A stretch of DNA of 64,000 nucleotides, from NCBI GenBank assembly GCA_030690415.1, contig JAUYGZ010000003.1:124001-188000 (forward strand), read 5' to 3'. This document shows positions 281-31,245 of this stretch, in pieces. The notes beneath the pieces were generated by a model. The model saw only the letters and a list, made by a program, of their open reading frames with translations. It had not been told where the DNA came from and made no database searches. The DNA is from a bacterium (GTDB lineage Bacteria > Patescibacteriota > Gracilibacteria > JAUYGZ01). The translations under genes were made by a program, and so were the position numbers. The stretch's first letter is position 1; the number at the start of each line of letters is the position of its first letter.

Positions 281-2587
281 ATGAAATTCAAACAAAAAAT
301 CATGTTCAATATGTTCAAAAAAGCTTTCGCCATTCTTGTCGTAGTCCAGATGCTCATCGCCTCTGTCCCCAGCGTATTCGCGCAGAGCGGGGGAGTGCTG
401 AGAGTCATGAATATCACGGCTGGAAAGCCAGCACTCATCATGTTGCAGGGTAAACCCGGTGAAGTGGTCAATCTGCGGATCACGAACCCCTTCAAATCAA
501 CCGTGACTCAAAAATTTCAGCTGGATAAGACTGGAGTACTGCAATACTTGTACTCTCAGGCAGTGATCGCGGGTCAGTACAGCGTCAGTTCTGGCGACCA
601 AACGGCCACGTTCAGCGTGAGTGCCGGACAACCGGACACTCAAAAATCATACGTTGAATTGAGTGATTATACTGCCTTCACGGGCGAAGAGATCCAGGGA
701 TCACTTCTGCTCCAGGATCATTATGGCAATAAAATTGGACAGCGTTTGATCAGCATTCAGACCAAGGGGTCCGCTCAGATCAGCTGCGCGCAGATCTGTC
801 AGACCAATGCTCAGGGATTGCTCACGTTCAGTGTCTACTCCAGGAACGCCGGACTGGTTCAGCTCGACTTCATCGACCAGAAGACAGGATCTCCCATCTT
901 CCATGAAGACATCGGGTTTTTGCCTCAGGTGCAGCAGACCGTTCAGCAGCCCTTTTACAATCCCTACGGACAAATGAGCACCTCACCCTACCTCTTGCCA
1001 ACCCAGCCGGTGAATAGTTTCCTTCCGGTTCAGCCAAACGTGGCTAATCTCAACCAACTGTTGAATATTCCGTCGAATTTTCAGTATCAGTCCAGTCCTT
1101 CTCTCGACTACATCCCCGTCTTCGACCCAACCCGGGCTACGACCAATTCTGAAGGAGGGGATGATGATGGTTTTTTCTCAACTTTTTCCTACGACCAGGG
1201 ATTGAACGACTTTTTCGGAGCCGATCTGATAGGCACTCCCGAAGCGGTCGCTCAGAGCAATGGAGGGACAGTTGATTCATTTGAAATCATTTTTGGTGAT
1301 GATCCCGAAGGCGAGTTTCAGAATCAGGTAAGTTTCCCCGCTCAAAGCGCGCAGGATTTTTATATCCGAGCCGTGGATCAAAATGGAGCGGTGGTGATGG
1401 ATTATACTGGAGAAATCACCTTTGATATCAGTCCTGAGGGCCCGCTATTGCCTCCTGACTACGAGTTTGCTCCCTTGGACCAAGGTGTCACCCTCTTTGA
1501 GCTCGCACTAGTATTACCGGCGGGTGAATACACCCTCAAGGTGGAAGACACTCTGAACAGCAGTATCGAAGGAGAGGTGGAAATCAACGCTCTTCTCGGA
1601 GGAGCCCCTACGCTGAATAATACAAATATTGAGCTGATCCTGGATTCACCGGTATCAGGCAGTGTCTATACCGGGACCATCGCAGTTCAGGGGTCCACTA
1701 ATACCGAAAACACAGAAGTGATCGTAAAAGAAGGCGATCAGGAGCTGGCCAGAGCGGAGGTGGACAACAATCGCGGATTCAATTTCCCGATCGTTCTCGC
1801 CGATGGATCTCATCATCTGGAGATTATCGCCAACTACCTTCCCGACGGGTCACAAACCACGACGACGGTAAATGTGGACATCGATCAGACCCCACCTGTG
1901 ATCATCAGTGTCGACGACCAAATCGACCCCGTGAGGGCAGGGGATAATTTTACAATGCGTGTAGAAGCGGAAGCGGAGAGCAAGCTTGAGGCCATAATCG
2001 ATAACCGAACCTACGAGTTCACGAATACCAGCGGAACGAGCTACGAACTCACCGCCAAATCTCCTCTCACAGTCGGTGACTACGCGATTAGCCTGAAAAT
2101 CGCTGATGAATTGGGAAACAGCGACAGTTCTCCGGATGTGGCTACCTTGAGTGTCCTTGAGCCTCTCAAGGAAATCGAAAACCTTTTTGGTATTCCCGGA
2201 GTGGAAAGCCTGACCCTATCCTGGAATCCCGTGGAAGGTGCCGTGGTCTACGAGATTGAGCAAAGCTCTATTCTTGGCACCATGACCTACACGAGCACCG
2301 AGCCTCGAACAACCATTGAAAAACTTCAGCCGGAAACCAGCTACAAGTTCAAAGTCCTGGCCAAAGACGCGGCCGGAGAATCAATCAGCCTGGTGACAGA
2401 AACCAGAGCGCTAAAAGTGTTGGCCGCGCCTGCCGAAGAAGTCCAACCCACGGTTTCTGCTGCGCCTGAAACACCAACACCGTCTGAGCAGCCAAAGTCC
2501 GGACCAGAGGTTTACCTGCTGATTTTAGCCTCGGTCATTCTTCTTAATTTTTACAGCAAACTTCGCAAGAAGTTCTGTTGTAGCTAA
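281..2587 (+). CDS. Secreted/surface-anchored protein with Ig-like and fibronectin type III domains, C-terminal TM
   Basis: Signal peptide (AFAILVVVQMLIASVPSVFAQ); Fn3-like region (PGVESLTLSWNPVEGAVVYEIE...LQPETSYKFKVLAKDAAG); C-terminal hydrophobic helix plus KLRKK. Confidence 0.7.
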   Translation: MKFKQKIMFNMFKKAFAILVVVQMLIASVPSVFAQSGGVLRVMNITAGKPALIMLQGKPGEVVNLRITNPFKSTVTQKFQLDKTGVLQYLYSQAVIAGQYSVSSGDQTATFSVSAGQPDTQKSYVELSDYTAFTGEEIQGSLLLQDHYGNKIGQRLISIQTKGSAQISCAQICQTNAQGLLTFSVYSRNAGLVQLDFIDQKTGSPIFHEDIGFLPQVQQTVQQPFYNPYGQMSTSPYLLPTQPVNSFLPVQPNVANLNQLLNIPSNFQYQSSPSLDYIPVFDPTRATTNSEGGDDDGFFSTFSYDQGLNDFFGADLIGTPEAVAQSNGGTVDSFEIIFGDDPEGEFQNQVSFPAQSAQDFYIRAVDQNGAVVMDYTGEITFDISPEGPLLPPDYEFAPLDQGVTLFELALVLPAGEYTLKVEDTLNSSIEGEVEINALLGGAPTLNNTNIELILDSPVSGSVYTGTIAVQGSTNTENTEVIVKEGDQELARAEVDNNRGFNFPIVLADGSHHLEIIANYLPDGSQTTTTVNVDIDQTPPVIISVDDQIDPVRAGDNFTMRVEAEAESKLEAIIDNRTYEFTNTSGTSYELTAKSPLTVGDYAISLKIADELGNSDSSPDVATLSVLEPLKEIENLFGIPGVESLTLSWNPVEGAVVYEIEQSSILGTMTYTSTEPRTTIEKLQPETSYKFKVLAKDAAGESISLVTETRALKVLAAPAEEVQPTVSAAPETPTPSEQPKSGPEVYLLILASVILLNFYSKLRKKFCCS

Positions 2588-2908: not shown

Positions 2909-4366
2909 ATGAACCCCCTCCACCTCTACAACACCCTCAGCAATAGCCTCGAAGAGTTCAAGCCCCTGCATCCCGGCCAGGTGCTGATGTACAACTGCGG
3001 ACCGACCGTCTACAACTTCGCGCATATCGGCAATCTGAGCTCTTACCTTATGGCCGATCTCCTGCGCCGGTATCTGGAGTACAAAGGTTACGAAGTGAAA
3101 CAGGTCATGAATATTACCGATGTGGGCCACCTCGTGTCCGACAGCGATACGGGCGAAGATAAAATGGAGAAAGCGGCGAGAGAACAGCAGCAGGATCCCA
3201 TGGATATTGCGCGGAAATACGAGCAGGTCTTTCATGAAGACCGAAAAAAACTGCACATCAAAGACGCCATGGCTTATCCGAGAGCAAGCGAATATATTCC
3301 GCAGCAATTGGAGGCGGTGAAGAAACTCCTAGAGCAGGGGATAGCTTATGAAACCTCTGATGGGGTTTACTTTGACGTGAGTCAGTTTCCTGACTACGGC
3401 CAGCTCTCGAATAACAAGCTGGAGGACCTGAATGCCGGAGAGCGAGTTGAAATTGATGAAGAAAAAAGGAATCCCGCTGATTTTGCGCTCTGGAAAAAAT
3501 GCACAGGAGAAAATGCCCACCATATCCTGCGATGGAGCTTCGAGACGGGAGAGAGGGTTTCAGGATTGGAAGAAGATGTCTCGGTCGGGTTTCCTGGATG
3601 GCATATCGAGTGTTCGGCTATGGCTTCGGCGCTCTTGGGAGAAACAATCGATATCCATACGGGTGGTGAGGACAATATTTTTCCTCATCACGAATGCGAA
3701 ATTGCCCAATCGCGAGCCGTGAGTGGGCAATCTTTCTTTGCTCATTACTGGGTTCACAAGCGCCATATCTTCGTGGATGGAGAAAAGATGAGCAAGTCCA
3801 AGGGCAATTTTTACACTCTGTCAGACCTGGAGAAAAAAGGCTTTGAACCCTTGGCTTACCGTTACCTGATCTTCTCCACGCACTACCGACAAAACACTAA
3901 TTTCACCCTAAAGGGGATGGAAGACGCAACCAAATCCATCGAACGACTTCAGACCTTTTTAGAATCCCTGCAGGAAGCCTCTGACCAGGGGCCAGAGCTG
4001 GATGCCCAAGCGGCCCGGGAAAAATTCGAACACTCCCTTGATGATGATTTAAACAGCTCGGGAGCTCTTGCAGCGGTCTTTGACCTTGTAAAAGAAGGCA
4101 ATAAAGCCATCGCCGAGTTTGGGGGCATCAAAAACCGTCTGGACCTCCTCAAGTTCCTGCGTGATTTCGATCAGATCTTTGCCATCCTCAGCTGGGATGT
4201 GGAAGAGGAGAAGGACCCTGAAATTGAGATGCACATCACCCGTCGGAATGAAGCCCGGGCCAACAAAGACTTTGACAAAGCTGATGAAATCCGTGACCAA
4301 CTTAAGGAAAAGGGCGTTGAGTTAATCGACAAAGATGGTAGGACGGCGTGGAAGAGGGTGAAATAG
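2909..4366 (+). CDS. cysS: Cysteinyl-tRNA synthetase (start trimmed to MNPLHLYNTLS)
   Basis: YNCGPTVYNFAHIGN (HIGH region), GWHIECSAMA, KMSKSKGN. Confidence 0.95.
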   Translation: MNPLHLYNTLSNSLEEFKPLHPGQVLMYNCGPTVYNFAHIGNLSSYLMADLLRRYLEYKGYEVKQVMNITDVGHLVSDSDTGEDKMEKAAREQQQDPMDIARKYEQVFHEDRKKLHIKDAMAYPRASEYIPQQLEAVKKLLEQGIAYETSDGVYFDVSQFPDYGQLSNNKLEDLNAGERVEIDEEKRNPADFALWKKCTGENAHHILRWSFETGERVSGLEEDVSVGFPGWHIECSAMASALLGETIDIHTGGEDNIFPHHECEIAQSRAVSGQSFFAHYWVHKRHIFVDGEKMSKSKGNFYTLSDLEKKGFEPLAYRYLIFSTHYRQNTNFTLKGMEDATKSIERLQTFLESLQEASDQGPELDAQAAREKFEHSLDDDLNSSGALAAVFDLVKEGNKAIAEFGGIKNRLDLLKFLRDFDQIFAILSWDVEEEKDPEIEMHITRRNEARANKDFDKADEIRDQLKEKGVELIDKDGRTAWKRVK

Positions 4367-28046: not shown

Positions 28047-29060
28047 TCACCTCCCCATGACCACCGCAATCTTGTTGATGCCATCCAGCACGTCATCCAA
28101 AGTCTTGTAGGTAATGGACTGATCACCGTCTGACCAGGCTTCTTCGGGCTTGGGATGGACCTCGATGATGAGGCCGTCAGCTCCGGCAGCAACACCAGCC
28201 ATCGCCATCGGTTTCACCATGTCGTAAGAGCCCGTCCCATGGCTGGGGTCGACGATAATCGGGAGATGAGACATTTTCTTGACCCAGGGAATGACGTTCA
28301 GATCCAGGGTGTTTCTGGAGTATTTGCAAAAGGTTCGGATTCCTCTTTCACAAAGCACGATATGCGAGTTTCCCTCCTTGGCGATGTATTCCGCGGCGAG
28401 CAGAAACTCATCGAGATCAGCACTCATTCCTCGCTTGAGCAGGACAGGCTTCTGTTTCCTCCCGAGAGCCTTGAGGAGTTCAAAATTCTGCATATTCCGC
28501 GCCCCTACCTGATACATATCGATGTAGTCTGCCATCATATCCACATGCTGGGTATCCATGATTTCGGTGACGACTTTCAGGCCGGTTTTTTCAGCCGCTC
28601 GTTTCATCCACTTGAGAGCCTCCTCTCCATGGCCCTGGAAGGCGTAGGGGGCCGTGCGTGGCTTGAATGCTCCTCCACGAAGGAACTGGACTCCCCTCTT
28701 CTTCATTTCCTGAGCGATTTCCAGGAGGAGTTCTTCCGTCTCGACGGAGCAAGGTCCTGCCATGATTGCGATAGGATTGTTTCCTCCGATTTTCACACCG
28801 TCTCCGAAATCCACCACGGTGTCTTCAGGGTGGGATTCACGCGACACGAGACGGTATGGGCGCAGGACCGGCATGACTTTTTCGACACCATCCATGGCTC
28901 GAAACTTCTTCATATCGAGATCTCGTTCGTCTCCGAGCACGGCAATCACGGTCCTCTCTGTTCCAAACAAAGGAGCCGGCTCCAGTCCCGCATCTTTCAC
29001 GGCCTGAATGACATGTTCAGCGTTTCCTTTCGTGGCTCCCTGGCGCATACAGATAATCAT
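28047..29060 (-). CDS. aroF: 3-deoxy-7-phosphoheptulonate synthase, type I-beta with N-terminal ferredoxin-like regulatory domain
   Basis: [63 protein letters not shown]. Confidence 0.93.
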
Positions 29061-29206: not shown

Positions 29207-29241
29207 GTTGAGCGTTAAGAGTTTAGGGTAAAGAATTAAGA
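29207..29241 (-). repeat. Degenerate heptameric tract at the tyrA 3' end
   Basis: GTTGAGC GTTAAGA GTTTAGG GTAAAGA ATTAAGA (plus strand). Confidence 0.5.
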
Positions 29242-30081
29242 AATATTTTTTGAAAGGGTCAAAAGATGGTTGGTGCGTCGATAGGCCTGATTCTTAAAGT
29301 CGCCCATAAAGTCTGCCGCTTCACGGAAGGCCTGGACGAACCGGTTTTCATCTCGCTCCTGAACGGTCTTCATCAGCAGAGTTATAGCTTCCTGGTATGC
29401 TGTCAAAGATTGCTCCGTGAGCGGATTTTCAATGGCTATCTCCGCGTAGAGTTCGGGACTTTGAGAGAGCACCCGTCCGACCATATCCAGACGAAGCTTG
29501 TATATCGGACTGGAGAAATCAAGACTCTTATTGATCTGAAACCCAAGTTTCTTCATGGCCATACCGGTTGCAATGGCTGAGATATGGGTGATGCCCTGGA
29601 TCAGACTCATCATGCGGTCATGTTCTTCAGCAGAGCACTCCTTGATGTGTGCTCCTTCAGATCGAAAGAAGTCCAGCAACTGTTCAGCTAAGGTTCCAGA
29701 ACGAACGGGACAGCTCACGATGACCTGTTGTTTTAGATCCGATCCAAATTCGGGACCGAACATCGGATGAAGGCCCAGCACTTCACAGGACTCAGGAGCC
29801 GATTCAAGCAGAGCCTGCACAGCAGGTGACTTGATCGAAGTGAAATCAGCGATCAGAGCTCCGGACTTAGCTAATGGAGACAGTTCCCGAATCACTTCCA
29901 CGGTTCGTGTGATCGGAACCGAAAAGATGAGGATATCAGCCTTACGCGCGACCTGTTCTCCCGACAAGTCAGTGTTCAGGTCAGCTCCGATGACTTCGAA
30001 TTCTCTTGATACGAAGAGCTGAGAGAAGGCTTTTCCCATCTTGCCTTCCGAGCCGATAATGCCAATAAGTGGTTTATTCAT
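29236..30081 (-). CDS. tyrA: Prephenate dehydrogenase
   Basis: IGIIGSEGKMGKAFSQLFVSREFEVIGAD; LGLHPMFGPE; THISAIATGMAMKKLG. Confidence 0.88.
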   Translation of the reverse strand: MNKPLIGIIGSEGKMGKAFSQLFVSREFEVIGADLNTDLSGEQVARKADILIFSVPITRTVEVIRELSPLAKSGALIADFTSIKSPAVQALLESAPESCEVLGLHPMFGPEFGSDLKQQVIVSCPVRSGTLAEQLLDFFRSEGAHIKECSAEEHDRMMSLIQGITHISAIATGMAMKKLGFQINKSLDFSSPIYKLRLDMVGRVLSQSPELYAEIAIENPLTEQSLTAYQEAITLLMKTVQERDENRFVQAFREAADFMGDFKNQAYRRTNHLLTLSKNIS

Positions 30082-30949
30082 GGTGTTTTTGAGCAGAAAT
30101 AAAGCGGGTGTAGTTTATCTTGAGATCCTGTATGGCCTCTTCGACTAGGTCCAGATGATAGAGTTCCGCGCATCGTTTGGGAGCGATCACAGCGAGATCT
30201 TTTTCATCAGGGCACTGTTCGAGTATGCGTGCCCCCTCGGCCGTATCAGTCGATTCGATGAGCTCAGCATTCGGGAAATGGGTCTTCAGATAATCCTTGC
30301 ACTGCTTTAGCGCCTGCTGGTGAGACATGATTTTGATAATGTCTTCCTTCTTCACTCCCGGCAGGGCCATCAGACAGTGCACCACGTCAAATTCGAAAAT
30401 ATCCTGAATATCGAATCGATGCTGACTAGCGGCATAGATGGACTCGGTGACCAGGCCTGCCGTGGAGTTCTCGATAGGAAAGATCCCTACATCGATATGC
30501 CCTGACTCCAGATCTTTCAGCACATTCTCTGAAGAAATAGGGTAATGCAGCTCGAAGTCCTCAATGCCCTGTTCTTTCAGATGCTCCAGCGCCGCAGCCT
30601 CCGAAAAGCTTCCGATCCCTCCCATAACTCCCACCCTCAGCTTCTTCCCTTCATCCCTCAGCAATCCTCCCCTTTTTTCCGACTGGGTATCCCGGGCCAG
30701 GAGGACGACTTGCTCAAAGATGAGTTCCAATCGCAGGGGGTCAATGCCAAGTTCTTTTGCCAATTCGTTGCGTTTCGTACGGGCTTCCAGTTCTCGCTTG
30801 GGGTCGTACACTGACAAATCCGACTCTCGTTTAATCTCACCGATTTGCCTAACCTCGTTCAAGCGTTCAGCAATGGAGTGAATCATCTGTTGATCGATCT
30901 GATCGATCCGATCGCGATGCAGTTTGATCCTATCTTGAGGAGTAGGCAT
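30074..30949 (-). CDS. pheA: Bifunctional chorismate mutase/prephenate dehydratase lacking a C-terminal ACT domain
   Basis: N-terminal chorismate mutase helix (RDRIDQIDQQMIHSIAERLNEVRQIGEIKRE); PDT motifs GSFSEAAA, GIFPIENSTAGLV, INYTRFISAQ; ends directly after PDT. Confidence 0.9.
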   Translation of the reverse strand: MPTPQDRIKLHRDRIDQIDQQMIHSIAERLNEVRQIGEIKRESDLSVYDPKRELEARTKRNELAKELGIDPLRLELIFEQVVLLARDTQSEKRGGLLRDEGKKLRVGVMGGIGSFSEAAALEHLKEQGIEDFELHYPISSENVLKDLESGHIDVGIFPIENSTAGLVTESIYAASQHRFDIQDIFEFDVVHCLMALPGVKKEDIIKIMSHQQALKQCKDYLKTHFPNAELIESTDTAEGARILEQCPDEKDLAVIAPKRCAELYHLDLVEEAIQDLKINYTRFISAQKHHE

Positions 30950-30961
30950 AGGAATTGAAAT

Positions 30962-30991
30962 AAAAAAAATCCTCTCGTTGCTGAGAAGATT
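30962..30991 (-). terminator. Intrinsic terminator in the pheA leader (attenuator)
   Basis: Minus strand aatcttctc-agcaac-gagaggatt then T-tract, ending about 13 nt before the pheA ATG. Confidence 0.85.
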
Positions 30992-31022
30992 GTATTGAAG
31001 TTCACACTGCAAACAACACTTC

Positions 31023-31073
31023 TCAGGCGGAGAAGAAGTAAAAATAAAACCAATTGTTGTTTGATGCGTTCAT
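31023..31073 (-). CDS. pheL: Aromatic leader peptide MNASNNNWFYFYFFSA controlling pheA
   Basis: 17-codon ORF with W-F-Y-F-Y-F-F run; stop lies in the cttctc-cgcct-gagaag hairpin (31019..31035) whose 3' arm can pair with the terminator 5' arm. Confidence 0.85.
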   Translation of the reverse strand: MNASNNNWFYFYFFSA

Positions 31074-31155: not shown

Positions 31156-31245
31156 TGGTGCGCGGGAGAGGACTTGAACCTCCACGGACGGTATTTTGTC
31201 CACTAGCCCCTCAAGCTAGCGCGTCTACCATTTCGCCACCCGCGC
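31156..31245 (-). tRNA. tRNA-Leu (anticodon GAG), CCA encoded
   Basis: gcgcgggtggcgaaatggtagacgcgctagcttgaggggctagtggacaaaataccgtccgtggaggttcaagtcctctcccgcgcacca; class II variable arm, GAG in TTGAGGG loop. Confidence 0.96.

Follow-up and report, generated by a model that had tools for sequence, protein, structure and literature searches.

Patescibacteria, a large branch of mostly uncultured organisms, have a reduced metabolism, and little is known of how their genes are controlled. The region ahead of pheA in the window (the whole 64,000-nucleotide stretch of DNA analysed here) raises the question of whether such a host regulates aromatic amino-acid synthesis by attenuation. The first-pass annotation had proposed a ribosome-mediated attenuator at this site; homology, conservation among relatives and ribosome-occlusion folding support this proposal, which remains a prediction. 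Very probably, the element controls pheA-tyrA-aroF by ribosome-mediated transcription attenuation, with charged Phe, Tyr and Trp tRNAs as the signal sensed.

Architecture of the pheA leader

The leader ORF (Table 1) encodes a peptide of 16 amino acids, MNASNNNWFYFYFFSA, in which codons 8-14 read W8 F9 Y10 F11 Y12 F13 F14, that is, one Trp, four Phe and two Tyr within seven codons; its earlier placement on the minus strand, with the WFYFYFF run, was correct to the base, and aromatic runs are also found in the leaders of two relatives. The genes downstream make the amino acids that the leader reads, and the Pfam domains of all three agree with the target operon that had been named. The run intermixes Trp, Phe and Tyr codons, and the operon comprises the shared first enzyme and the enzymes of both branches; for these reasons we read the leader, which is presumably translated, as a likely general aromatic sensor responding to Phe, Tyr and Trp, not to Phe alone.

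Table 1. Location of the leader, operon and related features discussed in the text.
Feature	Location	Strand	Basis or content
Leader peptide ORF MNASNNNWFYFYFFSA	31073..31023	-	Direct sequence reading; ATG at 31073, TGA ending at 31023
Hairpin 1:2, CTTCTC-CGCCT-GAGAAG	31019..31035	-	Sequence reading; core conserved in three genomes; arms CTTCTC 31035..31030 and GAGAAG 31024..31019 read directly
Antiterminator 2:3, TGAGAAG..GTTGTTT with ..ACAATCTTCTCA	30982..31025	-	Folding; arms complementary across genomes
Intrinsic terminator 3:4, AATCTTCTC-AGCAAC-GAGAGGATT and T-tract	30962..30991	-	Folding and sequence reading; AATCTTCTC 30991..30983, loop AGCAAC, GAGAGGATT 30976..30968, T-tract 30969..30962
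pheA, chorismate mutase and prephenate dehydratase	30074..30949	-	Pfam CM_2+PDT (PF01817, PF00800)
tyrA, prephenate dehydrogenase	29236..30081	-	Pfam PDH_N+PDH_C (PF02153, PF20463)
aroF, DAHP synthase	28047..29060	-	Pfam DAHP_synth_1 (PF00793, PF18152)
Counterpart leader ORFs in family relatives	L002 1276-1326; L003 1352-1405		
trpR-trpL(WW)-terminator-trpE	G000 contig C3, L125: trpR 3081-3344, leader 3031-3084	-	TrpR family PF01371
His-His-His leader MTSFVREIASHHHASLRT and strong terminator before hisG	G002, L126:2203-2289	-	
HisR-like ORFs with His tail	L130:2204-2539; L134:2212-2553; L132:919-1275; L136:2185-2571; L141:661-984	-; -; +; -; +	

Hairpin 1:2 overlaps the last Phe codon, the Ser and Ala codons and the stop of the leader, and the UGA lies within it, as had been claimed. 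The intrinsic terminator reported ahead of pheA is likewise present, with a segment z of -4.3 and none of 200 shuffles equally stable; its T-tract stands 12 nt from the pheA ATG (30949). The isolated 2:3 segment has the antiterminator as its minimum free energy fold (-15.0 kcal/mol, z -3.1), and by folding the antiterminator and the terminator are mutually exclusive.

Predicted ribosome-dependent switch

If Phe, Tyr or Trp were scarce, a ribosome would halt in the WFYFYFF run and cover arm 1, arm 2 would pair with arm 3, and RNA polymerase would read on with no terminator formed. With all three aromatics plentiful, the ribosome would reach the UGA inside arm 2 and cover that arm, and arms 3 and 4 would form the terminator. 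We infer accordingly conditional termination at the pheA leader, responding to amino acids, and a sufficiently close coupling of transcription and translation there.

The switch was modelled by masking the RNA up to the front edge of the ribosome for each A-site codon and computing the probability of the terminator helix. In this calculation, which describes equilibrium and not kinetics, the window has a terminator probability of 0.00 while the A site holds any codon from W8 to Y12; the value rises to 0.31 for F13, 0.96 for F14 and 0.97 for the stop codon. A ribosome on the control codons thus frees the antiterminator in silico and one on the stop codon permits the terminator, and the two family relatives give curves of the same kind. 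With the front edge set between +10 and +14, the switch point shifted by roughly one codon only and stayed within the last part of the codon run. Such a switch arose in 14 of 500 shuffled-spacer controls and in 170 of 500 when the GAAG after the stop was kept, so much of the fold is due to the conserved core by itself. Together with conservation, these results favour the 1:2 / 2:3 / 3:4 switch with alternative pairing of GAGAAG that had been put forward.

That the computed switch point falls where the codon run ends also bears on whether the leader RNA is bound by something else, such as a tRNA in T-box fashion or an RNA-binding protein, the short ORF being incidental. T-boxes are switch RNAs that also stand ahead of amino-acid genes, which makes this thinkable. 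However, the leader has no match to a T-box or any other riboswitch in Rfam at threshold, nor to the T-box covariance model, and conservation concerns the run of aromatic codons and the arms, with the peptide frame kept despite base changes; we consider such binding very unlikely.

Initiation at the attenuator leader was considered at both the transcriptional and the translational level. A tRNA-Leu gene lies just upstream (31156-31245), and in the window the interval from this gene to the leader shows no consensus promoter, which counts against the attenuator. The same arrangement would suit a constitutive terminator, for instance of the tRNA-Leu transcript, next to a chance aromatic-rich short ORF and without regulation. 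Both relatives, however, keep the leader, the hairpin core and the terminator, with no tRNA in the upstream stretch read; the core pattern occurs in 3 of 361 genomes, and an aromatic leader with a terminator was observed three times against 0.10 in shuffles, so that an unregulated terminator is highly improbable. Upstream of the pheA leaders of these relatives (G001 and G002) stand the promoters TTGAAG-17-TATGAT and TTGACT-17-TAAACT, respectively, each matching 9 of 12 consensus positions and ending 20-odd bases 5' of the leader ATG. The leader of the window is possibly co-transcribed from tRNA-Leu.

No Shine-Dalgarno sequence precedes MNASNNNWFYFYFFSA in the window. Such motifs were found before the starts of 2 of 45 long ORFs of the window, with starts chosen mechanically, versus 15.6% at random sites, which suggests that initiation there is Shine-Dalgarno-independent; since the motifs are below background, their absence at the leader weighs little. 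Recoding of TGA, present in parts of the class, was rejected for the host genome, as 12 of the 45 long ORFs end in TGA.

Conservation in the family and candidate leaders across the phylum

The genome containing the window (G000; 1.45 Mb, 98.8% complete) has as nearest relatives, among the genomes compared, the 'Candidatus Gracilibacteria' MAG JARGOK01 (G001) and the MAG JAUYKR01 (G002), which places the host in the Patescibacteria (CPR), as had been suspected. At the same position before pheA, whose products are 58-68% identical to that of the window, the two relatives carry the leaders MNTPLYSFGTFFYFSF and MSISKAFYSFYFWNFSA; the peptides differ and the layout is kept. Persisting across the three leaders are mainly the aromatic residues, the CTTCTC...TGAGAAG core, the arms, the stop within the hairpin and the terminator. 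In the antiterminator arms outside the core, sequence varies between genomes and complementarity is maintained. Loss of the run and hairpins at homologous loci had been named as grounds for abandoning the attenuator; both same-family relatives retain them, with changed sequence.

The core pattern CTTCTCNNNCTGAGAAGN{22,52}CTTCTC was found solely in the three family genomes among 361 genomes of the class, and reversed controls gave none; with the same layout in both relatives, this is more than chance. No leader was found upstream of more distant pheA genes (L004/L034, L033, L035). A covariance model built from seven Paceibacteria leaders (R1) had the window attenuator as its sole match in G000 (28.2 bits, E 0.046); given this weak score and its failure to find the pheA leaders of G001 and G002, the result is suggestive only. 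The other R1 matches in G001 and G002 were rejected on inspection as not being leaders.

These leaders also bear on whether the element works mainly through translation coupling or a leader peptide acting in trans, as reported for TrpL in Sinorhizobium (PMC7298713). Against this, the stretch from leader to pheA contains a complete intrinsic terminator with a run of eight T, and the peptide sequence is unconserved except for its aromatic residues; we see little chance that termination is not the main route, and retain transcription attenuation.

Attenuation does not appear to be a one-off at pheA, its prediction also being supported at trpE in the same genome and at hisG in G002. In G000, the trpR stop overlaps the start of the trp leader MISLLSTFHDSWWTHSF (ATGA), followed by a terminator and trpE. 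Here a ribosome on the first or second Trp codon leaves the terminator a computed probability of 0.01 and 0.00, respectively, against 0.98 with the ribosome at the stop. G002 carries the leader MTVTDFKLTWWNNSLRR before trpE. By ribosome-occlusion folding, neither the trp leader of G001 (MKPLFQKSYWH, one Trp) nor the His leader of G002 gave a clean switch. hisG was not found in G000 or G001.

The survey was extended to trpE and hisG loci sampled from the phylum, to which the hisG locus of G002 was added. A Trp-run leader with a terminator preceded trpE at 6 of 30 loci (0.15 in shuffles), and a His-run leader preceded hisG at 8 of 30 (none in 20 shuffle sets), or about 7 of 30 without L139, discounted because its His residues lie inside a TrpR-family domain. 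No Leu-run leader was found at the leuA loci examined. Phe-rich leaders stand before an AroD-AroE-AroK fusion (L062), a PDT-ACT pheA (L036) and an aminotransferase gene (L054) in Paceibacteria, and a Falkowbacteria MAG has one upstream of a PDT gene cluster (MIKNITKGFYFFWFYFFSKETNLL, L039); at L037, L043, L047, L048 and L057, also Paceibacteria, no aromatic gene was identified directly 3' of the Phe-rich leader. The leaders scanned gave no Rfam match at threshold. On balance, we favour the view that ribosome-mediated attenuation is widespread, and possibly old, in Patescibacteria, with phe, trp and his genes as its targets across several classes and with a variant whose His leader is the tail of a HisR-like repressor.

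At five hisG loci (L130, L132, L134, L136, L141), a YerC/TrpR-family (HisR-like) ORF (TIGR02531) has the His run as its C-terminal tail, and the stop of this ORF is followed by a terminator-like stem, lacking a proper T-run at L136, and hisG. Regulator and attenuator leader are thus seemingly joined in one gene; if so, a single ORF encodes both a DNA-binding regulator and a ribosome sensor.

Two further loci were noted. A possible Ile-rich leader, MYNNNSFIIILFTNR, with a terminator precedes an aminotransferase class III gene (L115, near 1501-1628, plus strand), and an aromatic leader, MGRISITTNNYFSYFYFSALYGG, with a terminator precedes PEP-mutase-like and aminotransferase class IV genes (L113, 1495-1566, plus strand).

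Comparison with known attenuators

The mechanism is already known, and its presence across Patescibacteria appears unreported: we found no earlier report in the open literature searched, a coverage that mostly leaves out subscription journals. Three papers describe predicted attenuators in other phyla, namely in Actinobacteria (PMC1262725), as His leaders in Firmicutes (PMC9413887) and as uORFC-13-1 before aroF in Acholeplasma (PMC8632094). These too are uORFs carrying cognate codons, with a terminator and amino-acid genes behind them; Patescibacteria are not among the hosts in the passages found.

A 2013 survey suggested that gamma-proteobacteria may be where amino-acid attenuators arose, and that transfers were few (PMC3766115). 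Phe, Trp and His attenuators of unrelated sequence in CPR genomes would argue for a wider or repeated origin. They would also imply that transcription and translation are closely coupled in their hosts, and their leaders would offer a readable signal of which amino acids a cell senses and makes for itself.

Among the closest counterparts of the window element is the pheA attenuator of E. coli (pheL), in which Phe codons cluster in a short ORF, the arms are of the 1:2 / 2:3 / 3:4 type and a terminator stands just 5' of pheA. In a 221-base search, Phe_leader (RF01859) was the best-scoring Rfam family, at full length (E 0.028), and its 24.8 bits fell short of the gathering threshold of 55. Unlike pheL, the leader of the window mixes Trp, Phe and Tyr codons, its operon adds tyrA and aroF, and its host belongs to the Patescibacteria. 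The trpE leader of the same genome, a locus separate from the window element, resembles the trp operon attenuator (Trp_leader, RF00513) in its tandem Trp codons, overlapping arms and adjacent TrpR, but has no Rfam match at threshold (L168). Finally, PMC9413887 reports His attenuators from those Firmicutes lineages that lack HisR (TrpR family), the two being found in different lineages, whereas in Patescibacteria a HisR-like protein and a His run appear joined in one ORF.
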